From: Methanomicrobia archaeon | GTDB lineage: Archaea > Methanobacteriota_B > Thermococci > Methanofastidiosales > NM3 | Reading direction: 5' to 3' | Length of the DNA stretch: 39,503 nt | Assembly: GCA_030603445.1 (NCBI GenBank) | Contig: JAUVXU010000014.1 | Location: 1-39,503 of the forward strand | Shown here: in pieces, positions 6,454 to 39,503 of the stretch | How positions within the stretch are numbered: the first letter of the stretch is position 1 | Layout: each line of letters opens with the position of its first letter | Position numbers and translations under genes: made by a program | Notes under the pieces: generated by a model | Told to the model about the DNA's origin: nothing | The model's input: the letters and a program-made list of their open reading frames with translations, nothing else | Databases searched by the model: none

Positions 6454-7320
6454 GTGTTTGCAGAAACCTTTGTTCCAGGAAATATTACCGGATTTTTTGC
6501 ACTTCATAGTGCAGAAGATATTCTTGATACAGGCACTACCGGTGCCGGTGTATGCATATCCCAAGGCGTTCGGACAAGAATGGAGGCACATCGTTCTTCT
6601 GAAACTTCCTGCGCATTTTATACAAACGACAAGAGGGTCGATATAGCAGGCGCTGCAAAAGTATGTGAAAATCTGCTTAGAGCATCCTCTGAGCCGTATG
6701 AGGTAACATTTCATTACGATACTACTCTACCTATTGGTTCTGGCTATGGGGTTAGCGGGGCAACAGCACTAGGCACTGCAAGGTGTCTGGGGCATCTTTT
6801 ACACTGCCCTCAAGAATTATGCGGTGCTATTGCCCACAGGGCTGAGATAGAAACTTTTGGAGGTCATGGAGATGTTGTATCCCAACTTTCTGGGGGGGTA
6901 TGCTTGCGTGAGAGCCCCGGCATAAATGGAATTATCAGTCAAATCCCTAAACAAGATCATAAAGTCCTTAGTCTGTCTTTTGGACCGTTGTCGACAAAAA
7001 AAGTCCTAAGTGATAGCAAGCTTGTAGAAACAATCAATTGCAACGGCCTGGCATGCATGCAGGATATTACCCACAAAAAATCTTTGGAAGGGATGATGGG
7101 ACTCTCACGTTCCTTCTCAATAGCAATTGGCTTGGAGACCCCCAGGCTTAAGGAAGCAATATCTGCTTTGGATAAGACCCATACAATGCCGTCATCTATG
7201 GTAATGCTTGGCGAGACGCTTTTCACTTTTGCTAGGGATGAGGACATGCCGCGCCTTTTAGATGTGCTCTTATCTTTTGATGGGGAAGTGTTCGTATCAG
7301 ACATATGGGAGAAGATATAA
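6454..7320 (+). CDS. pantoate kinase (GHMP family)
   Basis: PoK phosphorylates pantoate with ATP, the archaeal replacement for pantothenate kinase. The 288-residue protein begins ETFVPGNITGFF, as archaeal PoK proteins do, and has the GHMP ATP loop LPIGSGYGVSGA (92-103). The start is a GTG with a TATA-like box just upstream; no better in-frame start is near. Phosphopantothenate synthetase follows with its start codon overlapping this stop (TAATG), and then an ECF S component, so these three form an operon. Together with CoaBC on the opposite strand and CoaD at 20678-21115, most of the CoA pathway is encoded in this window. Confidence 0.92.
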   Translation: MFAETFVPGNITGFFALHSAEDILDTGTTGAGVCISQGVRTRMEAHRSSETSCAFYTNDKRVDIAGAAKVCENLLRASSEPYEVTFHYDTTLPIGSGYGVSGATALGTARCLGHLLHCPQELCGAIAHRAEIETFGGHGDVVSQLSGGVCLRESPGINGIISQIPKQDHKVLSLSFGPLSTKKVLSDSKLVETINCNGLACMQDITHKKSLEGMMGLSRSFSIAIGLETPRLKEAISALDKTHTMPSSMVMLGETLFTFARDEDMPRLLDVLLSFDGEVFVSDIWEKI

Positions 7321-8087
7321 TGGATATTTCAAAAAATCACCCCCGCTACGCGTCACTAGTCAGTAGGAAAAAAATAGTAGACGCGTTTGAATCTGGAATG
7401 CTTGCTAAAGCAGGTCTTATAGCTCACGGGAGAGGTGAGACGTTTGATTACTTGTTTTGCGAGAAGACCCATGATTTTGCAATAGATGCCATTAGGGCAG
7501 CTGCATCGGCGCTTCTTCTAGCAAAAAATCCAGTGATATCTGTTAACGGCAACGTTACAGCACTTGTGTGTGACGAGGTCGTGGCGCTGTCAAAAGAAGT
7601 GCCGGCAACAATTGAGATAAACTTGTTCTACTGGACAAGGGAGCGCGAGGATGCTATTCGTTTAGCGTTTTGTGGGATAGATCCAAAGGTAAAGCTGTTG
7701 GGAAATGGCACGAAGCCAAAGATAAAAGGGACCTGCTCTAATCGCGCAAAAGCAAATTCCAAGGGCATACCAAATGCTGATGTAGTGCTTATTCCACTTG
7801 AGGATGGGGACAGGGCAAATGCGCTTGTAAATGCTGGGAAAAAGACAATTACAGTGGATCTGAACCCTTTTTCAAGGACGGCAATAGCGTCTGATATCAC
7901 AATAGTGGACAATATTGTAAGAGCATTTCCTCTCTTGGTAAGAGAGGTTGCAAGGTTGAAAGAGACACCATCTTTGATACCTGATGCGCTTGTAAAATTT
8001 GATAACAAGGCCAATTTGAGAAAGGCTGCAAACTATCTTAAAAATAGGCCATACTCATTTGAAGAGGAATTAATATGTATAAGATGA
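7320..8087 (+). CDS. 4-phosphopantoate-beta-alanine ligase (phosphopantothenate synthetase)
   Basis: PPS condenses 4-phosphopantoate with beta-alanine, following PoK. Family hallmarks are ISKNHPRYASLVSRKKIVDA at the start, LIAHGRGETFDYLF, and LGNGTKPKIKGTCSNRAKA with the following IPNADVVLIPLEDGDRANAL. I chose the ATG at 7320 because it forms a TAATG junction with the PoK stop and has GGGAG about 8 bases upstream; an ATG at 7305 would add five residues. The stop overlaps the next gene by 13 bases, which suggests translational coupling. Confidence 0.93.
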   Translation: MDISKNHPRYASLVSRKKIVDAFESGMLAKAGLIAHGRGETFDYLFCEKTHDFAIDAIRAAASALLLAKNPVISVNGNVTALVCDEVVALSKEVPATIEINLFYWTREREDAIRLAFCGIDPKVKLLGNGTKPKIKGTCSNRAKANSKGIPNADVVLIPLEDGDRANALVNAGKKTITVDLNPFSRTAIASDITIVDNIVRAFPLLVREVARLKETPSLIPDALVKFDNKANLRKAANYLKNRPYSFEEELICIR

Positions 8088-8608
8088 ATACAAGAACAAT
8101 AGCAATGGCAGGCATGTTTGGTGCACTTGCACTTGTTGCATCAACTATAAAAGTGCCGATGCATTTTGGAAATCCCAATTTAGGATCAACACCCGTTTCG
8201 GTAGCTAGCGTACTATTTCCACCAGGAGTCTCATTCTTCACAGGATTGATAAAAGGTATTGGCGCTTCTTTGTGGACAGGTCAGCCATATATTGAGATGG
8301 CCGCAGGCCTTGGTGACGCATTTATGGCATTATTTACATATGCCCTTACTAAAAGAATGAGGGTGGAAAAGGCACTCATCTTTGGGCAGCTTTCACGATA
8401 TGTGTTTACATCTACTCTTATTGCAATATCGGTATCTGTCTTCTTGAAGGGGGACTTTACCCTTATCCCTGCTACTTGGTGGGCAATATTTCCTGCAGTG
8501 ACGCTTTCTATAATCGCTAACATCATCGTTTCTCTCCTGATAGTAAGGGGGATGAGCGATAAGGTTAAATCGCTTCTTGGGATTAACACTTTCAGCACCG
8601 TAAAATAA
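8075..8608 (+). CDS. ECF-transporter S component-like membrane protein
   Basis: A 177-residue protein with about five to six hydrophobic helices and the look of an ECF S component (substrate-binding subunit): an early AGMFGALALVAS helix, a loop with MHFGNPNLGSTPVSV, and PPGVSFFTGLIKGIGAS, where small residues pack against the T subunit. It starts inside the end of the PPS gene (13-base overlap) with GAGGAA before the ATG; an ATG at 8084 would also work. The operon position suggests a CoA-pathway substrate. Since PoK and PPS bypass free pantothenate, pantoate or beta-alanine are as plausible as pantothenate. No EcfA or EcfT gene is in the window. The substrate is inferred only from context. 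Confidence 0.7.
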   Translation: MYKMNTRTIAMAGMFGALALVASTIKVPMHFGNPNLGSTPVSVASVLFPPGVSFFTGLIKGIGASLWTGQPYIEMAAGLGDAFMALFTYALTKRMRVEKALIFGQLSRYVFTSTLIAISVSVFLKGDFTLIPATWWAIFPAVTLSIIANIIVSLLIVRGMSDKVKSLLGINTFSTVK

Positions 8609-8627
8609 GGGAATATTTCCCTTTTTT
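8607..8627 (+). terminator. hairpin plus T-tract after the CoA operon
   Basis: AAGGGAA-TAT-TTCCCTT is a perfect 7-base-pair stem with a 3-base loop, followed by a T-run, right at the stop codon of the S-component gene. It would end the PoK-PPS-S transcript. Confidence 0.6.
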
Positions 8628-8723
8628 CATTATTTTAAGTAGACTATTTACTGATCCCGTTTTCATATTAAGGGTGCTGAAGCGTCGATTTTAACTTAAG
8701 TATAGTTTTTGATTAACTTACCT

Positions 8724-8757
8724 CTATAAATAAAAAATTAAAAAAATTAAAAATAGA
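8724..8757 (-). terminator. T-rich terminator of the amt-glnK operon
   Basis: Reading along the minus strand about 40 bases past the glnK stop, the sequence passes through several T-tracts (up to seven T) with short AA interruptions. This is the same style as the tract at 3655-3682. Confidence 0.5.
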
Positions 8758-8794
8758 AGTTAATCGTATTCCATATAATACTTAGTTGGAGATA

Positions 8795-10377
<1,583 letters not shown>

Positions 10378-10384
10378 ATAATCA

Positions 10385-10741
10385 CCTTAATTTATGTTTG
10401 TCTATTATTTTTTATTTATTCTCTACATTTGTCTTATATTATTGTCAATTTATGTACATACATATATTGATTACGATGTAAATTAAACTTTTGTTTAAAA
10501 ATATTTTGGATAAATTATAGACATTATGTGCAATTGTTTATTATTTTCATAATTATTTATATAAACGTCTAAAATTATATTAATATTATATACATATGTA
10601 TCATTAGGATAATAAAAATTCAACATATCGTCTAGCTTATCTTTAATATTCCTAAAAATACCTACGACGAAGTTTCATGTTTCTCTTTTAGGGTAACATT
10701 AGTATGAGAATCTAAATACGCCTGCCTTCATAAGTTGATTT
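10385..10741. other. AT-rich intergenic region upstream of amt
   Basis: About 350 bases without a supported gene. It holds the amt promoter on the minus strand and several A/T stretches, but nothing else that I can name. No open frame of useful length or regulatory palindrome stands out. Confidence 0.5.
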
Positions 10742-10747
10742 AAGAGT

Positions 10748-10900
10748 ATGTCTGCCCAGATTGAAGCAAAAAGGCCACCGTCTGCCAGGGGAATTTCCCA
10801 CAAAAGTGGTGCTTCTGGCACGCATAAGAAACTATGCACGCATAGTTTCTTGAAACCTAGTCATACTAGAGCAATTATTATTCATCATAAAGAACTGTAA
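10748..10900 (+). other. GC-richer structured element; possible 50-residue open frame
   Basis: This stretch is more GC-rich than the flanks and can be read as a 50-residue frame (starts MSAQIEAKRPPSARG, contains SGTHKKLCTHSF). It also holds several nested inverted repeats: TGCCAG/CTGGCA, CCAC-AAAA-GTGG, and the perfect 12-base arms at 10826-10851. I think a structured RNA, or a remnant of a repeat or mobile element, is more likely than a protein. No ribosome binding site precedes the ATG. Confidence 0.35.
10826..10851. repeat. perfect 12-base inverted repeat
   Basis: AAGAAACTATGC (10826-10837) and GCATAGTTTCTT (10840-10851) are exact reverse complements with a 2-base gap. It has no T-run, so it is not a standard terminator. 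It may be a folded RNA, a recombination or transposon end, or a protein site. Confidence 0.6.
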
Positions 10901-10941
10901 TTATAGATTTTCCAATGTTGCAATAATATGATTAAAAAAGG

Positions 10942-11014
10942 TGCGGCTGCCGGGATTTGAACCCGGGTTATGAGCTTGGAAGGCTCAAGTGCTGGGCCAC
11001 TACACTACAGCCGC
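10942..11014 (-). tRNA. tRNA-Gly (anticodon UCC)
   Basis: On the minus strand a 7-base-pair acceptor stem (GCGGCTG with CAGCCGC), an anticodon arm TGAGC-CTTCCAA-GCTCA with anticodon TCC, and a T-arm CCGGG-TTCAAAT-CCCGG form a complete cloverleaf. The discriminator is A. CCA is not encoded: the sequence continues CC then T. A T-run follows (10931-10938) and would end transcription. No intron is present. Confidence 0.96.
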
Positions 11015-11136
11015 ATGTCTAACCTAGTATAAGAGGGTAGTTTAAAAAATTTTCTGTATATACAATAGTTAGCAAAGTAATTGAAGTTATCCTATAAGGG
11101 ATTATCTTTTAATTATAGAATGATATTATCAAATTC

Positions 11137-11709
11137 ATGGATAATGATTATTATATCTTTATTGGTGTAGTTATAGTCACTCTAGTGGTATTATTTCTCA
11201 CAGACTCATATCGAGATCCTGCTCCTGTTTTTGCAGGGGGCGTGTTAGTAGCTACAATGGTATATGCAGTATATACTCGTAAACTAGTAAACGAAACGCG
11301 CGCAACATGGATTGAAACATATAAAACTAGACAAGCATCGCAAAAACCCAGTATAATCGCGTTTCCTAAATTCATAGATATTTCTAATGAAAATGACGGC
11401 TTTCTAAGGAAGGAACAATATATTTACATCTCTAATATTGGCGGGGTTGTGGCAAGAAATATTACTTTTGAAATCAAAGATAAAAATATGGAACTGCCAG
11501 AAATTGGAATGAATAAAATAAAAAAAGGCATTAAATATCTAGCTCCAAGTGAGGAAATATATGATTTATTTAATTTTGTAGGGTTAGGTAGTAAATTTGA
11601 TGAATCATTTAATTTAGTAATATGCTATGAATATATATCTGAGGAGGATAAATTAGTGAAAACAGAAGAAGTTGTACCTATTGATTTTTATTTGGTATCT
11701 CATTGGTAA
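11137..11709 (+). CDS. membrane-anchored protein of unknown function
   Basis: A 190-residue protein with two hydrophobic segments at about residues 6-22 and 32-48, then a soluble domain rich in beta-strand-like stretches (YIYISNIGGVVARNITFEIK, YLAPSEEIYDLFNFVG). I do not recognise a family; proteins with two N-terminal helices and a beta-sandwich-like domain are common in accessory regions. Codon use is AT-rich like the restriction-modification genes that follow, so it may have arrived with them. It lies next to tRNA-Gly, on the 5' side of the tRNA. Confidence 0.6.
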   Translation: MDNDYYIFIGVVIVTLVVLFLTDSYRDPAPVFAGGVLVATMVYAVYTRKLVNETRATWIETYKTRQASQKPSIIAFPKFIDISNENDGFLRKEQYIYISNIGGVVARNITFEIKDKNMELPEIGMNKIKKGIKYLAPSEEIYDLFNFVGLGSKFDESFNLVICYEYISEEDKLVKTEEVVPIDFYLVSHW

Positions 11710-11723
11710 TTATTTTTTCCTTA

Positions 11724-11846
11724 TTACTCAAAATCCATTTCAATATATTTTTTCATCTTTTCAAGAAATATTTTCATGTAAACTTTTTCTGTTTTTTCAG
11801 TGGCGCCAGTTCTCTTTTTAGCTAGTAGGTAATATCCCTGTATAAA
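11724..11846 (-). pseudogene. gene remnant, C-terminal 40 residues
   Basis: On the minus strand a protein-like reading of 40 codons (contains YYLLAKKRTGATEKTEKVYM and ends in KYIEMDFE then TAA) is open from a TAG at 11847-11849, with no start codon before an internal ATG 17 codons from the end. The composition looks like real coding sequence, so I read it as the tail of a deleted gene. It could also be chance in a short frame. Confidence 0.35.
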
Positions 11847-11960
11847 CTAATCATATGATTATCTGTTAACTTATTATATAAATTTTATTATTTTCAAATG
11901 ATTTTCTATAAATAAACAATACTTTTTTATATAAAAAATATTAAAATTATATAGATAATT

Positions 11961-12239
11961 ATGAAAAAAAACAATGATTACGAAAAAGGAGATACAATCC
12001 CCGATGTAGACTATGGAAAAAATAAGCCAGAGGAAACAATCAAAATATTAAACAACGAAATTGACATAATTGAAAAGAAAACAAAACTTACATGGGATGG
12101 TAGGCAGTTTATAGTGCGAATACCAAAAGCAATTGCAGATGTGATGAATCTTAAAGAAAAAAACGAACTAAGGTTTCGACTTGAAAGACGTGCTCCAGGG
12201 GAAGGGCAGAATCCAAAATTAAAAATGTGGTTTGAATGA
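11961..12239 (+). CDS. AbrB-like DNA-binding protein, probable controller
   Basis: A 92-residue protein. The N-terminal 35 residues are charged and probably flexible. The rest (KLTWDGRQFIVRIPKAIADV, then NLKEKNELRFRLE) follows the swapped-hairpin AbrB/MazE pattern, in which G-R-Q-F-I-V-R-I-P-K marks the DNA-binding hairpin. It overlaps the next gene by 4 bases (ATGA) and stands upstream of a DNA methyltransferase gene, so I infer that it regulates the restriction-modification genes. An antitoxin role is the alternative, but no toxin-like partner is seen. Confidence 0.65.
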   Translation: MKKNNDYEKGDTIPDVDYGKNKPEETIKILNNEIDIIEKKTKLTWDGRQFIVRIPKAIADVMNLKEKNELRFRLERRAPGEGQNPKLKMWFE

Positions 12240-12451
12240 AAGATTTAAATCTTATTGAGAGAAGGATACTCAAAGTATTATATCTGGCAAACAGACCCCT
12301 TACCACAAGTGAAGTCGCAAAAAAATCAGAAATATCTTGGCAAACAACAAAAAAATATCTGGATATTCTATATTTTGTAAAAACATTGGTGCATGCTCGA
12401 AGAGTTAGCAATAAATCAATTTATTGGTGGTTAGTAACAGAAAGGGATTGA
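12236..12451 (+). CDS. winged helix-turn-helix protein, probable controller
   Basis: A 71-residue protein that is almost only a wHTH domain: LIERRILKVLYLANRPLTTSEV, then AKKSEISWQTTKKYLDILYF as helix-turn-helix, and a wing (VHARRVSNKSIYWWLV). It is translated from an ATGA overlap with the AbrB-like gene. Small DNA-binding proteins next to restriction-modification genes often act as timing controllers; that role is inferred from position. Confidence 0.65.
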   Translation: MKDLNLIERRILKVLYLANRPLTTSEVAKKSEISWQTTKKYLDILYFVKTLVHARRVSNKSIYWWLVTERD

Positions 12452-12489
12452 GTATTATTAATAGAAGATTTATGGAAAAAATATCTTCA

Positions 12490-12501
12490 ATGTGTTCACA
12501 T
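12490..12501. promoter_or_regulatory. short inverted repeat before the methyltransferase
   Basis: ATGTG-TT-CACAT lies about 65 bases before the methyltransferase start, in the gap behind the two small regulators. It could be their operator. The arms are only 5 bases. Confidence 0.25.
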
Positions 12502-12564
12502 ACTTAGATAATAAAGAGTTAGAATTATTAATGTACACAACCATCTACCCTACTCGGTGAAATA

Positions 12565-14211
12565 ATGCAATTAATCAAAGATATAAGCGAAGAAAAGCTA
12601 AGGGGCGGTTTTTATACACCTGCCCCAATTGTACGTTTTATTCTTCGATGGGCAAAAAATGGTAATAGTTCATACGAACTTCTAGAACCTAGTTGTGGAG
12701 ATGGGGCATTTTTAAAAGAAATAAAAGATACACAATTCAAATATAAAAGTATTACAGCATTAGAACTAATAAAAAAAGAAGCTGAAAAAGCAAGTCTTAT
12801 CAATCTCCCAAATACAGAAGTGATTAACGATGATTTTTTTTCTTTCTCGAACACAACAAAAAATAAATATGACTTAATAATTGGAAATCCCCCTTATATT
12901 CGATATCAGTATTTTGATAAAAAACAGAGAGAAGAAACGATTAAGATATTTTCACGTGCAGGCATAAAATATAGTAAATTAATGAATGCTTGGACAGGGT
13001 TTGTTGTTAGCTCAACATTAATGATAAAAGAAAAAGGAAAACTAGCTTTTGTATTACCAGCAGAAATATTACAAGTAGGATATGCTAAACAAATTAGACG
13101 ATTTCTTTCTAATAACTTCAATAAGATAAGCATTGTTAGTTTTAGAAAACTTATTTTTCCTAGTGCACAGCAAGAAATAGTGTTGATACTATGCGAAAAA
13201 AATGGTACTTCTGAAAGATTAATAGAGCATATTGAACTTGATGATAGAGAGCCGCTTGATAATATTGATGTGATCAACTTAAAATATCCAAAAAAGCGAA
13301 TGAATACATTTAGTGATAAATGGACATTGTATTTCTTAAATCAAAACGAAATAGACTTTGTTGAATCTATTGCAAAAAAATATAATATATATAAAATAGG
13401 TAATTATGCTAAAGTTGAGGTAGGAATGACAACAGGATGCAATGACTTTTTTACTGTATCCGAAAGAGTAGTACAACAATATGATTTATTCCCTTATTCA
13501 GAACCTATGGTTGGTAGAAGTGTTCAAGTTATTAGTAATATTTTTACTAGAAATGATTGGATAATGAATATTGAAAAGGGTGCAAAAGCTTTTTTCCTTA
13601 AGTTTCCAGAAAAGAAGAATCTTCTTAATAAAGCATTAGACTATATTAAGAAAGGAGAACAAGAAAAAGCAAATGAATTCTACAAATGTAGAATTCGTAA
13701 AGAATGGCAAATTGTGCCTAGTGCATGGGTAAGTGATGCGTTATTTATTAGAAGAAATGACATTTATCCTAGACTCATAATGAATAAAGCTAATGCATAC
13801 ACCACAGATACGATGCATCGTGTTACACTTCGTAAAGATAATTTATTGGGGCATAATGTTAATATTAACATCGATTCGTTTGTGGCAAGTTATTACAATA
13901 GTCTCTCTTTTGCTTTTGCAGAAATATGTGGAAGAAGTCATGGGGGCGGAGTTCTTGAATTAATGCCTAAGGAAGTTGAAAATATTCTCTTGCCTTATGA
14001 TGAACGAAATGCTAGTCTTCTTTCATCTATTGATAATATGCTACGTTCGGGTAAAACAATCGATGAAATCATTGCATATACGGATAATATTATTCTAAGA
14101 AAAAATGTTGGACTAACTAAAGAAGAAATATTAATCGCTAATGGAATATGGAAAAAAATGCTTAATCGAAGAAAGGGAAGAAGCACTAATCAGTTGATGT
14201 CAATGATATAA
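12565..14211 (+). CDS. adenine-specific DNA methyltransferase (NPPY type)
   Basis: A 548-residue protein. The N-terminal domain has SAM motif I (LLEPSCGDGAFL, about 39-50) and catalytic motif IV NPPY (108-111) in DLIIGNPPYIRY, as in gamma-class N6-adenine methyltransferases (TaqI/Eco57I-like). The C-terminal about 300 residues (from VEVGMTTGCNDFF) would carry the target-recognition domain. No nuclease motif is visible inside it. GGTGA lies 5 bases before the ATG. Its 3' end overlaps the convergent PLD-fold nuclease gene by 22 bases, so methylation and restriction genes face each other. The recognition sequence cannot be read from here. Confidence 0.88.
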   Translation: MQLIKDISEEKLRGGFYTPAPIVRFILRWAKNGNSSYELLEPSCGDGAFLKEIKDTQFKYKSITALELIKKEAEKASLINLPNTEVINDDFFSFSNTTKNKYDLIIGNPPYIRYQYFDKKQREETIKIFSRAGIKYSKLMNAWTGFVVSSTLMIKEKGKLAFVLPAEILQVGYAKQIRRFLSNNFNKISIVSFRKLIFPSAQQEIVLILCEKNGTSERLIEHIELDDREPLDNIDVINLKYPKKRMNTFSDKWTLYFLNQNEIDFVESIAKKYNIYKIGNYAKVEVGMTTGCNDFFTVSERVVQQYDLFPYSEPMVGRSVQVISNIFTRNDWIMNIEKGAKAFFLKFPEKKNLLNKALDYIKKGEQEKANEFYKCRIRKEWQIVPSAWVSDALFIRRNDIYPRLIMNKANAYTTDTMHRVTLRKDNLLGHNVNINIDSFVASYYNSLSFAFAEICGRSHGGGVLELMPKEVENILLPYDERNASLLSSIDNMLRSGKTIDEIIAYTDNIILRKNVGLTKEEILIANGIWKKMLNRRKGRSTNQLMSMI

Positions 14212-15356
14212 GCCTCGTTTTCATCGATAGGTTCATAAAGGCACAATCTTTTACCTATTAAATTCTGTTTACGTATCTCATAGGATATTTTTCCCCATAA
14301 TAAGTAAGTTGTAAAGTTACCTTGACCTGCTTCGCCACTTGGTTTATGTTGTATTTCAAGTAAATGTTCACCAATATCTTTATTTAGAATTCTTATTCGA
14401 AATAACACGCATGTTGATTCGGTAAGAGGAATATTTTTTGTTACTGCCCAATATTCCTTTCCAAAAATACTATATCTAAAGTAAATAGTTTGGTCAATCT
14501 TAGTATCATCAACTTTAAAATCTGCTTGGGTGAAACGTAATTGTCCTGTAACATGGGTATTATCAGTATCTGTTTGCATCACATCGCTTTTTGGCAAAGA
14601 TTTTTTTTCCCACAATAATCTTTGTTTTTCTCTTATATCCGAGGGAAGTTGTACAAGAGGAATTGCGTCTTCTATTTCTACAAGTTGAGTATACTTAATT
14701 GGCGATATAGGAGGAAATAATTTGTATAATTTATCATGATATTCATTATCGTGTAGTTTTTCTTTTGTTCTTTTGGTTGAATTATCTTTTCGACGTTCTT
14801 TTTCTGTAAGGATAATGCCAGCATCATAAAGCAATTTTATCAATTCGTGGCTTAACAATCTTGTATTGGGGGATTGTTCAATTTTTTCAAAAAAAGTTTT
14901 TAGACTATTAATAATATCTAACTCTTTTTCATTTTCTTTTGAAAATTCAATAACTAAATTTGTTTCAACATTGTTAATAAATCCTGATAATGTCAAATTA
15001 GATGAACCAATTATTAATAACAATTCCTTTGCGTTTTCAAAAATATACATTTTTGGATGGTATATTTCAGCTGATGTTGTATAATATATTTTAGTATCAA
15101 TATCTAATTTGAGATATTTATCTAAAGCTTCTTTGGTTGTCCCTTTGTGGTCTATTCCAACAATTATGTGCCATTCTGTAATATGTTCTTTTGCAGAAAT
15201 AATGTGATTTTCTAATCTATTTAATAAAGAAAGACCTGAAAAAGCAGACATAGCATAGAAATGAAAATACGAATCATCATTAAGTTTGGATATCATCAAA
15301 TTCAGAAGATTGTTGTTAGTGTCTCCGTATCCCTGGCTAAAAAAATTAGTATTCAT
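14190..15356 (-). CDS. phospholipase D-fold restriction endonuclease (NgoFVII/BfiI-like)
   Basis: A 388-residue protein. The N-terminal domain shows one HxK...N PLD motif: H100-P-K102 and GSSN (N120), followed by E131 in NNVETNLV, the pattern of BfiI- and NgoFVII-type nucleases, which dimerise to form one metal-independent active site. The C-terminal half would read DNA. Its neighbour is an adenine methyltransferase, so I read the pair as a type II restriction-modification system. NgoFVII itself pairs with a cytosine methyltransferase, so this combination is worth noting. An alternative is a PLD-type helicase-associated domain, but no helicase is present. Confidence 0.72.
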   Translation of the reverse strand: MNTNFFSQGYGDTNNNLLNLMISKLNDDSYFHFYAMSAFSGLSLLNRLENHIISAKEHITEWHIIVGIDHKGTTKEALDKYLKLDIDTKIYYTTSAEIYHPKMYIFENAKELLLIIGSSNLTLSGFINNVETNLVIEFSKENEKELDIINSLKTFFEKIEQSPNTRLLSHELIKLLYDAGIILTEKERRKDNSTKRTKEKLHDNEYHDKLYKLFPPISPIKYTQLVEIEDAIPLVQLPSDIREKQRLLWEKKSLPKSDVMQTDTDNTHVTGQLRFTQADFKVDDTKIDQTIYFRYSIFGKEYWAVTKNIPLTESTCVLFRIRILNKDIGEHLLEIQHKPSGEAGQGNFTTYLLWGKISYEIRKQNLIGKRLCLYEPIDENEAYIIDIN

Positions 15357-15683
15357 CGTACCACATTACAGAGTAAAGATTATAATACTACAATTGAAAT
15401 TGTTACACTTATATAACTATCTTCACTATAATTTATGAGTATACTGAAGAAATAATCACTTATTTTAATCAATTGCATAATATCATCTAGTATTGTTGCA
15501 TATAGATGTAATGATTATAATTAATATTAACATCACATGTTTTTTAATCAAAATAATTGTGAGTAAAGAGGTATATTTATTCTCGAGTTTATTATATACT
15601 CTTTATGAAGAAAATAATATACAAATAGCATAGCATGAAAAGTATATTTTACTTTGCCAACTCCGATATAATACATGAAGCAC
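15357..15683. other. AT-rich gap right of the restriction genes
   Basis: This 327-base stretch has no convincing gene. It contains the nuclease promoter (minus strand) and A/T-rich sequence. No direct repeats marking an island boundary were found by eye. Confidence 0.45.
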
Positions 15684-33475: not shown

Positions 33476-34396
33476 TTAGATCCCTATTGTTGTTTTTAAC
33501 ACCCTAAATCCTTTTTTCTTGATAGCTGATGCGACCTTTTCTTGCACGCTTTTTTCAGGAGTAAGTGCCACCATATATCCGCCAAGGCCTCCGCCGGTCA
33601 TCTTGGCGCCTATTGCCCCATTTTCTCTAGCGGTATTTACAAGGCCATCAAGGTCATCGTTAGAGACCTCTATCTCCTGCAACAGCTTGTGATTCTCATT
33701 CATCAACTTGCCGACTGCTTCTAGGTCAAATGATTCAAGTGCTTTTCTGCCTTTAAATGCAACTTCTTCAGCAGACTTGAAGATATTATCATACTTCTCA
33801 GGATATTTTCCTTTTCTTTCCTTTACACCTGCAACAGCTGCCATTGTGTCAGCCACTTTTCCGGTATTTCCCATGACGATATTTACGGGTCTTGCAAGAT
33901 GCATGCGCTCCATGATATTCTCTTTACCCTTGATAAACCAGATCAACCCCCCATAAGTCGATGCTGTGTTGTCAATGCCGGAAGGGACGCCATGGTATCC
34001 TTTCTCCCCTTCATACGCAACGCGATTTATAGCATCATCTGAATAGTTGAGGTCGAACTCATCTGAAAGCGCGCGTGCAATAGCTACGCAGGACGCTGCA
34101 CTGGCACCTACGCCACTGGCAGCATAGAGGTCGCCCCCAAGCACTATCCTTACCCCTTTTTTCTCCAGATTCATGGCATTAAATATATTGTCAATAGAAT
34201 CCTTTTGCTGGGATAGCTTATCTTCCTTGTATTTTGGGGTGGCAGGCCTGTTGTCCTCATATTCAAAGCCGCCAGATATTCTTGAAACAGCAGCAGTCGT
34301 GCGCATACCTATTGCAGCTACTATTGCAGGCACACCGTGTACTACGAAATGTTCGTTAAATAAGATAACTTTTCCAAATCCGCTTCCTTGTCCCAT
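33476..34396 (-). CDS. mvk: mevalonate kinase
   Basis: GHMP kinase phosphorylating mevalonate. Features are GFGKVILFNEHFVVHGVPAI at the N-terminus, the ATP loop ASGVGASAAS (93-102), the catalytic Asp in SGIDNTAS (Asp142) and AKMTGGGLGGYMVAL near the end. It has 306 residues. It is the first gene of the isoprenoid operon, followed after 43 bases by ubiX. A possible ribosome site GGAGAT lies about 10 bases before the ATG. Isopentenyl phosphate kinase and HMG-CoA enzymes are not in the window. Confidence 0.95.
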   Translation of the reverse strand: MGQGSGFGKVILFNEHFVVHGVPAIVAAIGMRTTAAVSRISGGFEYEDNRPATPKYKEDKLSQQKDSIDNIFNAMNLEKKGVRIVLGGDLYAASGVGASAASCVAIARALSDEFDLNYSDDAINRVAYEGEKGYHGVPSGIDNTASTYGGLIWFIKGKENIMERMHLARPVNIVMGNTGKVADTMAAVAGVKERKGKYPEKYDNIFKSAEEVAFKGRKALESFDLEAVGKLMNENHKLLQEIEVSNDDLDGLVNTARENGAIGAKMTGGGLGGYMVALTPEKSVQEKVASAIKKKGFRVLKTTIGI

Positions 34397-34640
34397 AATA
34401 GGTATCTCCTTAACCCGTTTTTGATATGTTGCATATATATTATTTTTGGTTTAATATGCTTTACACATAAAGTGTGCCATTGAACATAAAGTTCTTATTC
34501 AAATTCAATAATCGATTTAAGATGATAAATAGTAAATCGTGTTATATAAAAAATTGATTAGATTAATATTACTTTTTCTCCTAAACCTCTAATTCTATAA
34601 GAATCGCAAACATGTTTTTTATCGCTTATAATTATTAGGG

Positions 34641-34655
34641 GAAATATTTTTAATT
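34641..34655 (+). promoter_or_regulatory. AT-rich promoter box of the GHKL gene
   Basis: GAAATATTTTTAATT is centred about 30 bases before the ATG at 34678. The gap between mvk and this gene (34397-34677) holds otherwise only AT-rich promoter sequence. Confidence 0.35.
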
Positions 34656-34677
34656 ATTTTTCTATCAAAGAATATAT

Positions 34678-35499
34678 ATGTCAATATTGGAAAGTTACAA
34701 AACTTGTTGCAATATTCGATACGAATACTTGAATACTAAAATATTGGATATGAGTCCACTAGATTTTGTATTGCCAATACATTTGGCATTGATGTTTGAA
34801 TTAATATTAGATGCTAAAAGAAAAGGAAAAGAGATAATATTGCCATCAAACCAGGACGCTGCTTCATATTTTAGTGCAATGTATAAGATAGGTCTTAGAG
34901 ATGATAGATTAAGGGGTAATACATACATCCCTTTGAGTAAGCTTCCTCTTGATCAAAAAGACATTGCAGATTTAAAAAACGACATGTTATCAAAATTGTC
35001 TAAAGGAATGCCTACGAGGGGGGAACAAGTTGTGGGCTACATAATTGATGAGTTAATAACAAATATATACGATCATTCTAATTTTTCTTTGGCTCTTGTT
35101 GCCGCTCAAAAATACAAAAAGAATTCACAACTAACTTTTTATGACAATGGTATCACTATCCCACACAACTACGAAGTAAACAACCTTCCTTTTAAAAATG
35201 ATTGGGAATCAGTGAAAATGGCAATGGGAGGATTATCAACAAAAAAAGAAAAAAGCAGAGGATACGGTCTTCGTTCTTGTCAAAATTTCATTAAATACTT
35301 TGAAGGGGAGATGTTAATACTGTCACGTGCCGGTGGATTATACAAAAGCATGGATAATAAGGAATTTAGATCAGTATCTTTAAGCGATAAATTTAAGTTT
35401 GATGGAACTCTAGTATGTATTAATACTAAAATATCAAAAATTTCAGGGAAAGATTTTTATAATTTAGTTGAATGCAAAAATCCAAGGGGGTTAATATGA
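34678..35499 (+). CDS. GHKL-type ATPase, histidine-kinase-like
   Basis: A 273-residue cytoplasmic protein. Residues about 115-245 form an HATPase domain: N-box DELITNIYDH (124-133), G1-like DNG (156-158), and a G2-like RGYGL (194-198) after a charged loop. No DHp/His phosphorylation domain, receiver or membrane segment is present, so it resembles anti-sigma-type serine kinases (SpoIIAB, RsbW) more than sensor kinases, though the N-terminal 110 residues are unfamiliar. It is translationally coupled (ATGA) to a STAS-like gene. Codon use is more AT-rich than the neighbouring isoprenoid operon, hinting at transfer. Function is unknown. Confidence 0.7.
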   Translation: MSILESYKTCCNIRYEYLNTKILDMSPLDFVLPIHLALMFELILDAKRKGKEIILPSNQDAASYFSAMYKIGLRDDRLRGNTYIPLSKLPLDQKDIADLKNDMLSKLSKGMPTRGEQVVGYIIDELITNIYDHSNFSLALVAAQKYKKNSQLTFYDNGITIPHNYEVNNLPFKNDWESVKMAMGGLSTKKEKSRGYGLRSCQNFIKYFEGEMLILSRAGGLYKSMDNKEFRSVSLSDKFKFDGTLVCINTKISKISGKDFYNLVECKNPRGLI

Positions 35500-35804
35500 A
35501 AACAATTTTAGTAAATAAATACCTGCATGGTGGTCTTAGCCTAAGGTCATATGCGAAAGACATCATGAATGATGTGCTTAAACATCAGGATTGTGAGATT
35601 TCCCTTGATTTTAATGATGTAGAGTATATCAGTAGGTCATTTGCCCATGAATTGATTATGGATAAAAAAAACACCAAAAAAACAGTAACATTCATTAATA
35701 AAAATCCTAATGTTGATGCCATGTTCTGTGTTGTGGAATCCAGTATCAATCAGACAAACACTAGAAAGATAAACATAAAACTTGGAAGCCCCATCTCCAT
35801 ATAA
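35496..35804 (+). CDS. STAS-like domain protein (DUF4325 type)
   Basis: A 102-residue protein with the fold pattern of a STAS-like domain: beta strand (CEISLDFNDVEYIS), then RSFAHELIMDKK as the first helix (the canonical anti-anti-sigma Ser lies here as S-R-S), and VTFINKNPNVDAMF. The start at 35496 has an AAGGGGG 6-12 bases upstream and overlaps the stop of the GHKL gene. I infer that the ATPase phosphorylates or binds it, as in bacterial partner-switch modules. Short T-rich sequence follows the stop. Confidence 0.68.
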   Translation: MKTILVNKYLHGGLSLRSYAKDIMNDVLKHQDCEISLDFNDVEYISRSFAHELIMDKKNTKKTVTFINKNPNVDAMFCVVESSINQTNTRKINIKLGSPISI

Positions 35805-35833: not shown

Positions 35834-37222
35834 TTAATACGTACGGCAGAATGCCAGTACATCCGGAAGCATTTCTGCAACGTCATGTGCTGTAAAAAAC
35901 GTCTTTTTCTGGGCATAGAGCGTATCACCGGCAAGCCCGACAGCAAAAGTTGCGGCAAGCGCGGATTCTAAAAGGAGATTTGTCGTTGCAAACGCTGCAA
36001 TACACCCCGCAAGCACATCACCTGTCCCACCTGTTGCCATACCCTCATTGCCTGTGACGTTCTGCCACGATTCATTTCCGTTTGAGATTATGTCCACCAT
36101 TCCTTTCAGCACGATTGTGCAGCCGTATTTTTCGGCAATATTTTTAACATGCTTTTTTCTTTCGTTAATTGTACTTGGGAGCGGGCCAAACAAGCGTTCG
36201 TACTCTTTTGCATGGGGGGTTATGCACACATTCTTACCTAAAAGGCCAAGATGCCCCTTTAGTGCGAACAGGCCGTCCGCGTCTATTACAAGAGGCACTG
36301 TTGCACGTTCGTAGATATGAAGAAGCGCATCAACAGTTTCTATGGAACGTCCGGCGCCAACACCGCATAAGATAGAGTCCACAGAGGAAAGTAATGGGCT
36401 TTTGGCTAGATGCATCGTGATATCCGGCCCTACTTGTGATTCTATGATAAGGTCGGGGCTTAGTGATCGCAACGCATCACCAACACACAAGGGGCATAGG
36501 ACATATACCAAGTCGCATATCTTTGCGGCCGTTATCCCTGCGTAGGCTGGGGCGCCATGATATGTTTCAGACCCACCGACTATAGCTACCACGCCACCTT
36601 GGCGCTTGTGTGCGTCTTTACTGCGTCTATGGAGAAACTTCACGTTCCCCGGGCCGCACTGCATGGTCAATTGGCGCGGGATGCCTATGGGGAGCGTTGT
36701 TGCATTTTCTACCTTCTTCTTGTGCAGTGATATCGTTGCATCGGCCTGCAGTTGCAGATCTGTCCCGTAGCCTGAGGGGACGTCTATTGAAACTGCCGGC
36801 ACATCCGCGTTGTTGATGGATTTGATGAACGAAGCGTATGGCTCCCTAACAACACCGCTGGCTCCTGTGCCAAGCATAGCGTCTATTATGAGATCGTAGT
36901 TCCAATTCTCTGGAGGATAGCATGACGAAATGATGTTCACGCTGCAGTGTGAGAGGATCTTGAAGTTTTGTCTTGCCTCTTTTGTCCTTATCTTTTGGGG
37001 TTCTTGTGCAAGCAGCACGTCAATATCAAAATCATCTTCAAGGTGGCGGGCAACAACAAATCCGTCGCCCCCATTATTTCCAGTTCCACACACGATAGCG
37101 ATTTTCTTTCCATCAATATTAGTTCTTATATGGTCTGCTATGCCCCTTCCTGCATTTTCCATCAGGACAATTGGAGGTAGTCCAAAGTAGCGTGCGTTCG
37201 TGTCAGTGATGCGAAAGTCCAT
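35834..37222 (-). CDS. nnr: bifunctional NAD(P)H-hydrate epimerase / ADP-dependent dehydratase
   Basis: This enzyme repairs damaged NAD(P)HX. The fused protein is 462 residues. The N-terminal epimerase domain (about 1-210) has LMENAGRGIADHI and CGTGNNGGDGFVVARHL, and VPAVSIDVPSGYGTD. The C-terminal dehydratase (about 220-460) has AIVGGSETYHGAPAYAG, VIDADGLFAL, ITPHAKEYERLF and the end motif GGTGDVLAGCIAAF (about 393-406). It is the second gene after a coiled-coil gene. The fused form is common in archaea and bacteria. Confidence 0.95.
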   Translation of the reverse strand: MDFRITDTNARYFGLPPIVLMENAGRGIADHIRTNIDGKKIAIVCGTGNNGGDGFVVARHLEDDFDIDVLLAQEPQKIRTKEARQNFKILSHCSVNIISSCYPPENWNYDLIIDAMLGTGASGVVREPYASFIKSINNADVPAVSIDVPSGYGTDLQLQADATISLHKKKVENATTLPIGIPRQLTMQCGPGNVKFLHRRSKDAHKRQGGVVAIVGGSETYHGAPAYAGITAAKICDLVYVLCPLCVGDALRSLSPDLIIESQVGPDITMHLAKSPLLSSVDSILCGVGAGRSIETVDALLHIYERATVPLVIDADGLFALKGHLGLLGKNVCITPHAKEYERLFGPLPSTINERKKHVKNIAEKYGCTIVLKGMVDIISNGNESWQNVTGNEGMATGGTGDVLAGCIAAFATTNLLLESALAATFAVGLAGDTLYAQKKTFFTAHDVAEMLPDVLAFCRTY

Positions 37223-38484: not shown

Positions 38485-39503
38485 TTAAATGAGAAGTAAA
38501 AAAATCGAAACAGGAATTTTTACGTAATTTCTATAATTTCCTAAATCATCCTTTGTAATCATAATACCTTTGTTAAAAGATTTAAACGCAAAGAAATCGG
38601 AACTATTTATTGTTGCTTGATATTTTACTTCAAAAGGCAAGTATTTATCATCATGTATTAGAACAAAATCAACTTCTTTTTTATTTTTATCCTTATAATA
38701 ACAAACGGTGTCTTTTGGATCAAATAAATCCCTTGGATTTAAATTGAATGATAATCTACAAAGATGATTATAAACAACTCCCTCAATTAATTTACTCTTC
38801 ATCTCTAAATTTAAGAGATTGGCTTTGGCATTAGTATAATAATCTTTTTTTCCATGGGACCAACCATGTAAAGCGTGAAATATGAATGGGTCCTGTAAAT
38901 ATATTTTTTTCATAAAAGTATGAATTCTTTTATCGTGTATCGAACAACGGTATGAAATATTTGCAACAAATAATTCTTCAAGAGCAGTTATATAATCTTG
39001 AACAGTATTATGGGATTTTACTTCGGTATTTTTTGTAAAACTATTCCAACTTATGGGATTTGACAATACATTGTATGTTTCTTTTATCAGTTGCTTAAAG
39101 TAATGCTCTTTATAATTATATCTTCTCAAATCCCCTATAATTGATGTTAGATAGACATTGAATAATTTCGTTGAAATTTTACTATTCGTCTTATATTCAT
39201 TAATTATTGAAGGTATACCTCCTGTTAATAGATAAATTTCAAATAAAGCATCTAGTTGTTTCTTAAATATCATCATATTCTGAATATCTTTGCTAATTTT
39301 TCCTTCAAAAAATTCGAATATTTTATTTGTTCTATCTTTTTTACTTGCAAATTCAGAATCAAAAAGTTTATTCTTGGATTCTGGCCAAAGTAAATTAACG
39401 AATTCTGAAAATTTCATAGGGAGTAAAATTTTGTCAAGTGGTTCATCGTCTTTTCCTCCCCTCCTACCAGGCATAAGTTCTGTAGAATGTTTTAAATCCA
39501 TTG
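38485..39503 (-). CDS. AAA_14/DUF4143-type ATPase, N-terminus beyond window
   Basis: The visible 339 residues start with STELMPGRRGGKD and LLPMKFSEFVNL, which is the region after the Walker motifs in this ATPase family, and continue into the C-terminal DUF4143 domain with a nuclease-like VDFVLIHDDKYLPFEVKY (D-E-K-like motif in EVDFVL ... PFEVKY). The frame is open to the window edge, so the N-terminal AAA domain is outside. These proteins are common accessory ATPases of unknown role in archaea. AT-rich codon use suggests an acquired gene. Confidence 0.82.
   Translation of the reverse strand, partial: MDLKHSTELMPGRRGGKDDEPLDKILLPMKFSEFVNLLWPESKNKLFDSEFASKKDRTNKIFEFFEGKISKDIQNMMIFKKQLDALFEIYLLTGGIPSIINEYKTNSKISTKLFNVYLTSIIGDLRRYNYKEHYFKQLIKETYNVLSNPISWNSFTKNTEVKSHNTVQDYITALEELFVANISYRCSIHDKRIHTFMKKIYLQDPFIFHALHGWSHGKKDYYTNAKANLLNLEMKSKLIEGVVYNHLCRLSFNLNPRDLFDPKDTVCYYKDKNKKEVDFVLIHDDKYLPFEVKYQATINSSDFFAFKSFNKGIMITKDDLGNYRNYVKIPVSIFLLLI

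Follow-up and report, generated by a model that had tools for sequence, protein, structure and literature searches.

A probable archaeal branch of the bacterial CapKS/VapKS kinase-substrate module, encoded by a mobile pair of GHKL kinase and STAS genes

What would a kinase of the anti-sigma type act on in an archaeon, given that archaea, to our knowledge, have no sigma factors? The question is raised by two adjacent genes in a stretch of 39,503 nucleotides (hereafter the window; contig JAUVXU010000014.1) from a Methanomicrobia archaeon of the Methanofastidiosales. In the initial annotation they were read as a SpoIIAB/SpoIIAA-like pair with a target other than a sigma factor. The pair and its surroundings are arranged as follows.

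33476-34396, - strand: mevalonate kinase gene, flanking the pair
34397-34677, no strand: intergenic, AT-rich (23% GC) upstream part of the insertion, from flank comparison with the sister-genus genome G001
34678-35499, + strand: kinase gene (273 aa), STAS-like N-terminal domain and GHKL (SpoIIAB-like) ATPase domain, VapK/CapK-like (ORF, Pfam, AF2, Foldseek, hhalign)
35496-35804, + strand: STAS-like (DUF4325) gene for a putative substrate (102 aa), VapS-like (ORF, Pfam, match to PDB 9z7o, hhalign)
35834-37222, - strand: housekeeping gene for an NAD(P)HX dehydratase/epimerase-like protein, flanking and converging on the pair

Both genes had been placed at the right coordinates and on the right strand, and the ATGA overlap between them was found at 35496-35499, with a Shine-Dalgarno-like AAGGGGG ahead of the STAS-gene ATG at 35496. 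The AT-richness of the pair was likewise evident: its GC content is 32%, compared to 45% for the mevalonate kinase gene and 49% for the gene at 35834-37222, and its GC3 is 27-35%, compared to 42-48% for neighbouring genes. NCBIfam and PADLOC profile searches covered neither protein at a meaningful score, and PADLOC gave no match for either. Elsewhere in the window, the contig ends in a DUF4143 ATPase-type gene (38485-39501, - strand) that shares the AT-richness of the pair, and a long low-GC stretch (24-36%) at 10201-15600, in a window of 40-49% GC, is possibly another acquired region.

The features of the two proteins that bear on their function are listed here.

34678-34953, + strand: degenerate STAS domain, residues 1-92 of the kinase (MAFFT, AF2 model, VapK alignment)
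34765-34767, + strand: F30, in the column of the ssDNA-stacking aromatic (CapK W68, VapK F54)
35050-35076, + strand: N box, E125-x3-N129-x3-H133 (53/53 homologues, partly forced by the scan pattern)
35143-35157, + strand: G1 box, D156-N-G158-I-T160 (D and G in 53/53, partly forced by the scan pattern)
35260-35268, + strand: G2 box, G195-Y-G197 (53/53, outside the scan patterns)
35637-35639, + strand: Ser48 of the STAS protein, invariant (59/59 STAS proteins), predicted phospho-acceptor

In the kinase, Pfam matched HATPase_c to residues 121-218 at 2.1e-4, which falls below the family cut-off. The N, G1, and G2 boxes first recognised by eye are present, and no His-phosphotransfer domain accompanies them, as had been noted. 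E125, N129, H133, D156, G158, G195, and G197 are invariant in 53 homologues, a figure inflated for the N and G1 boxes, whose residues form part of the scan patterns; the G2 and STAS residues are not affected. The N-box and G2 residues, on whose conservation the initial proposal had been staked, are thus kept in 53/53. E125 lies at what we take to be the position of the SpoIIAB catalytic base. The second glycine of the usual DxGxG motif is replaced by Ser or Thr in 52/53 kinases. The best target-normalised Foldseek match of the AF2 model (pLDDT 89.5) was SpoIIAB (1til; TMt 0.76, 3.4 A), and a viral structure library returned generic HATPase matches only. When a kinase-STAS ORF joined by a frameshift was modelled as one chain, the model matched SpoIIAB together with the anti-anti-sigma STAS proteins RsfB, TM1442, and RsbS. 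This joined ORF (L075, 1330-2604) was used for modelling only; its status as a single-frame fusion was rejected, as one shifted base relative to L066 removes the kinase stop and an indel or assembly error accounts for it.

Systems of this kind, with a target that is not a sigma factor, were recently established by experiment in bacteria (PMC13373217, June 2026), which lends support to that part of the initial annotation; the kinase-STAS arrangement is therefore not new in principle. CapK (HTH-STAS-GHKL) is partnered by CapS (STAS-wHTH), and VapK (STAS-GHKL) by VapS, a STAS domain with a short tail, and by the PIN nuclease VapC. The two systems are close relatives. The activator of CapK is ssDNA; the active kinase phosphorylates S54 of CapS, which then leaves DNA and frees a promoter. 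VapC is neutralised by VapS, an effect abolished by S48E, and vapKSC confers about 2 logs of phage protection. The ssDNA-stacking aromatic is W68 in CapK and F54 in VapK; activation of VapK by ssDNA is modelled and backed by the phage result for F54A, with no direct assay. That study covers bacteria only and does not discuss archaeal systems, the word occurring only in a reference (PMC13373217).

Comparison with VapK and VapS was made using Deinococcus plasmid P5, where the gene order is ATPase-STAS-PIN, with a Streptococcus phage added to the VapK alignment. The archaeal kinases aligned with VapK at E 6.6e-17 over 223 columns and both domains (hhalign). As a control, the RsbT encoded by the same genome aligned at E 4e-4 over 75 columns, covering the GHKL core only. 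The N-terminal 110 residues of the window kinase, initially called unfamiliar, proved to be a STAS-like domain by MAFFT, by the AF2 model, and by the VapK alignment. In a joint MAFFT alignment of kinases and STAS proteins, the STAS proteins fell unprompted on the kinase N-terminal domain (VVWDFSDVTFLHPFF against VILDFEGITFMSRSF), and helices and strands alternate in the AF2 model of this domain as they do in STAS domains. The equivalent part of Deinococcus VapK matches Pfam STAS (5.5e-5), and the archaeal kinase profile aligns with VapK through the N-terminal domain. Direct comparison of the kinase N-terminal domain with the partner STAS protein by hhalign was weak (E 0.003, probability 11%). 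From the VapK alignment and the predicted secondary structure, the window kinase is read as a STAS domain fused N-terminally to a GHKL domain. Within the predicted STAS domain, F30 was equated with E. coli VapK F54 by way of W53 of Deinococcus VapK. This position is Phe or Trp in 50/53 homologues, as would fit ssDNA activation, but it is hydrophobic in many STAS domains generally and is therefore weak evidence for ssDNA binding.

The 102-aa partner matches DUF4325 at 2.5e-6, which exceeds the family cut-off, and consists of a STAS core with a tail of ~20 aa and no wHTH. The best solved relative of the family STAS profile was Escherichia VapS (PDB 9z7o, E 1.5e-4), and hhalign of the profile to VapS gave E 6.5e-6. 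The Ser-rich site that had been pointed out exists (ISRSFA), but invariance is confined to S48 (59/59), and Ser, Thr, or Gly is found at position 46. Ser48 lies one residue C-terminal of the column that holds the VapS S48 acceptor and, in the register that we presume for SpoIIAA, S58. That column is occupied by R47 here and by Arg in 55/59 family STAS proteins. Given this offset, either the geometry at the acceptor is not that of VapS and SpoIIAA, or the modification falls on a different residue.

Relatives were gathered by tblastn and by a profile scan with residue patterns. The 67 genome loci comprise 59 archaeal and 8 bacterial ones by submitter label, and further relatives occur on the archaeal phage psiM100, Bacteroides phage BF1-TP2, and a Halobaculum plasmid. 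Co-occurrence of the two genes, for which a neighbourhood survey had been suggested, was upheld: the STAS gene adjoins the ATPase gene in 63/63 testable loci, a contig edge ending the other 4 of the 67. Usually the two genes overlap or stand no more than about 60 bp apart, and at one locus (L071) the gene order is reversed with the overlap retained. Kinase and STAS distances correlate with r 0.71, to which shared ancestry contributes, compared to 0.22 for the best of 2000 permutations. The archaeal labels span Methanobacteriota, Thermoplasmatota, DPANN, Bathyarchaeota, and Nitrososphaerota. The distribution is patchy, because DUF4325 is found in 6/115 genomes of the phylum and the ATPase is absent from relatives in the genus and family of the window organism. 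A candidate cross-domain transfer between Ruminococcaceae and Methanobrevibacter (near-identical loci L050 and L054) was rejected, the bacterial contig being a 4-kb MAG piece that may be misbinned.

STAS genes without the ATPase were seen in three genomes. At L006 and L007 (G010 and G018, from the window's order), the upstream ATPase has been lost and its last 8 codons remain before the STAS gene; RelE-like and DUF4065-like genes, recognised by eye, stand in its place at L007. At L003 (G105), a DUF4325 STAS gene that retains the conserved Ser stands as an orphan: the 3-kb locus holds no family ATPase, and the gene downstream encodes an AAA-type ATPase akin to the window ORF at 38485-39501. Another kinase-STAS pair is probably formed by Fhv_0046 (293 aa, hypothetical protein) and the next gene, Fhv_0047 (112 aa, DUF4325), which lie close to the CI repressor and integrase of a Francisella prophage (PMC7924643).

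Between the flanking mevalonate kinase gene and the NAD(P)HX dehydratase/epimerase-like gene lie 94 bp in a sister genus (G001) and 1440 bp in the window; in G002-G004, a diverged mevalonate-kinase homologue comes 60-137 bp after the same dehydratase gene. The simplest reading is that the pair is an insertion in the window lineage. The earlier idea of a transferable module is thereby sustained, as AT-rich DNA has been inserted between genes that are contiguous in sister genomes, with the pair missing from genus and family and its relatives carried by phages and a plasmid. No convincing terminal repeats of the insertion were found. In a tree of the pair, the window sits on a long branch and shares no more than 32% identity with any other row. 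It does not group with Methanofastidiosum of its own order, though its position has low support. A viral setting is provided by the following fragment.

AF301375.1 record, 6786-9711: psiM100 inserted fragment IFa, ORFB/ORFC/ORFD (L008), all genes annotated 'unknown' in the record

IFa has 33% GC, compared to 43% in the remainder of the retrieved region, and its order is kinase, STAS, and then ORFD directly after the pair. The ORFD N-terminus reads MKILVDTNIL, containing a VDTN motif, and matches PIN at E 0.014, below threshold; from these two features ORFD is probably a PIN protein. Close homology to the Deinococcus PIN was rejected, as pairwise comparison of the two gave no significant match. 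IFa is probably an archaeal vapKSC-type cassette in a provirus. ORFB/ORFC and MTH315/MTH316 form a well-supported clade with Methanobacteria members in the pair tree, and no mention of MTH315/MTH316 was found in the literature searched.

The window genome also encodes a canonical set of partner-switching proteins.

G000:C45, about 102840-106790 (locus L117, 341-4289), - strand: rsbRSTX-like stressosome module, with RsbR (RsbRD_N and STAS), RsbS (STAS), RsbT (HATPase_c_2), and a SpoIIE-type PP2C phosphatase

A histidine kinase and a response regulator come next, and rsbRSTX-like modules have been reported from some archaea (PMC9237108). The window pair is thus not the sole partner-switch-type system in this sigma-less organism. 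On a different reading, the window pair is a switch of the RsbT/RsbS or SpoIIAB/SpoIIAA kind: metabolic or stress signals, and not ssDNA, would trigger it, and its target would be a transcription factor or a membrane component of the archaeon. In fold the kinase comes closest to SpoIIAB, and the SpoIIE-type phosphatase of the rsbRSTX-type module could reverse the phosphorylation. However, sequence comparison puts the kinase far closer to VapK than to the RsbT encoded in this genome, and the predicted STAS-GHKL fusion and the phage and plasmid locations fit CapK/VapK and not Rsb modules; we regard a switch of this kind as unlikely.

Flanking genes were searched for a linked effector by clustering and by Pfam and PADLOC searches of 146 flanking proteins from about 50 loci. 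These genes are unrelated and mostly housekeeping; no family occurred in >5 of the proteins, so a conserved third-gene partner was rejected, and PIN was not among the recurrent families. AAA_14/DUF4143 genes near 5 loci were also rejected as partners, being distant and variable in orientation. Such genes are common in archaea, and their proximity was judged to be chance. The client search linked no effector to the window pair and found neither a neighbouring VapC nor a wHTH-controlled operon. The archaeal family is typically a free-standing pair, lacking a wHTH domain and a linked PIN toxin. A full VapKSC toxin-antitoxin system, with the gene for its VapC-type nuclease at another place in the genome, would accord with the VapS-like size and tail of the STAS protein, with the probable PIN directly after the pair in psiM100, and with the clear PIN on the Deinococcus plasmid. 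Yet the window genome (96% complete) offers one weak PF01850 match, below the cut-off and inside a 607-aa frame too large for VapC, which makes VapC in trans unlikely, and the flanks of about 50 loci lack a recurrent PIN; this reading is accordingly quite improbable. Least probable is that the two genes make up a toxin-antitoxin unit on their own, with a harmful ATPase and the STAS protein as antidote to it: free-standing mobile cassettes without a third partner and STAS genes kept where only the last ATPase codons are left (L006, L007) would suit it, but the characterised relatives use STAS as a kinase substrate with a third protein as toxin (PMC13373217).

We therefore favour, with a probability of roughly 0.68, the reading that the window pair belongs to the CapKS/VapKS kinase-substrate modules as their archaeal branch, including the full mechanism proposed here. 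The kinase, with its STAS-like and SpoIIAB-like GHKL domains, would bind ATP and phosphorylate the small STAS protein, most likely at Ser48. In its unphosphorylated form the STAS protein would hold a client inactive, and phosphorylation would break this contact and free the client. By analogy with CapK and VapK, ssDNA generated by DNA damage or phage attack would bind between the two kinase domains and switch the kinase on. The two genes would travel together as a small mobile cassette. Homology and conservation make a kinase-substrate function of the pair probable, and activation of the window kinase by ssDNA is plausible from the bacterial analogy; phosphorylation of S48, and ssDNA as the signal, are what we would predict for this pair.

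These results suggest that the module described in bacteria in 2026 reaches across archaeal phyla, mostly without an adjacent effector. The effector-less pair makes a testable question: which protein does the unphosphorylated STAS protein hold? An identity can be suggested for psiM100 IFa, and a candidate ssDNA-sensing kinase is on offer in archaea. We propose only tentatively that archaea at large possess a widespread, mobile, stand-alone CapKS/VapKS branch in which an ssDNA-sensing kinase would cause a STAS protein to release a host protein, a damage- or virus-triggered pathway undescribed in archaea.

Comparison with known systems places the pair as follows. It shares a GHKL kinase and a STAS partner with the rsbRSTX module, which is a separate, canonical set of RsbR, RsbS, RsbT, and a SpoIIE-type phosphatase. 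With SpoIIAB/SpoIIAA and RsbW/RsbV it has in common a GHKL fold nearest SpoIIAB and a STAS partner whose beta3-alpha2 region contains a conserved Ser; it differs in that the kinase appears to carry its own STAS domain, the partner belongs to DUF4325 and not to PF01740 STAS, and there is no sigma factor. CapK/CapS is likewise a two-gene unit of a GHKL kinase with a STAS domain and a STAS substrate, but the window kinase (273 aa) lacks the HTH, the STAS protein (102 aa, STAS only) lacks the wHTH, and a converging housekeeping gene occupies the place of a downstream immune operon. The psiM100 ORFB/ORFC and MTH315/MTH316 pairs belong to the same family (33% identity), and psiM100 differs from the window in its archaeal provirus setting and in having ORFD, the N-terminus of which is probably PIN, as a third gene. 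With respect to VapK/VapS, which was described for bacteria only, sequence identity is very low (24% over the GHKL part), neither the window nor nearly any other archaeal locus has an adjacent third gene for a VapC-type PIN nuclease, and the archaeal Ser comes one residue after the VapS acceptor column, in which Arg is found. The pair resembles VapK/VapS in the order of a STAS-GHKL kinase followed by a small, short-tailed STAS protein and in the association with phages and plasmids; a conserved serine/threonine of the STAS protein, offset by one column, and an aromatic residue in the predicted STAS domain of the kinase may be further points of resemblance.
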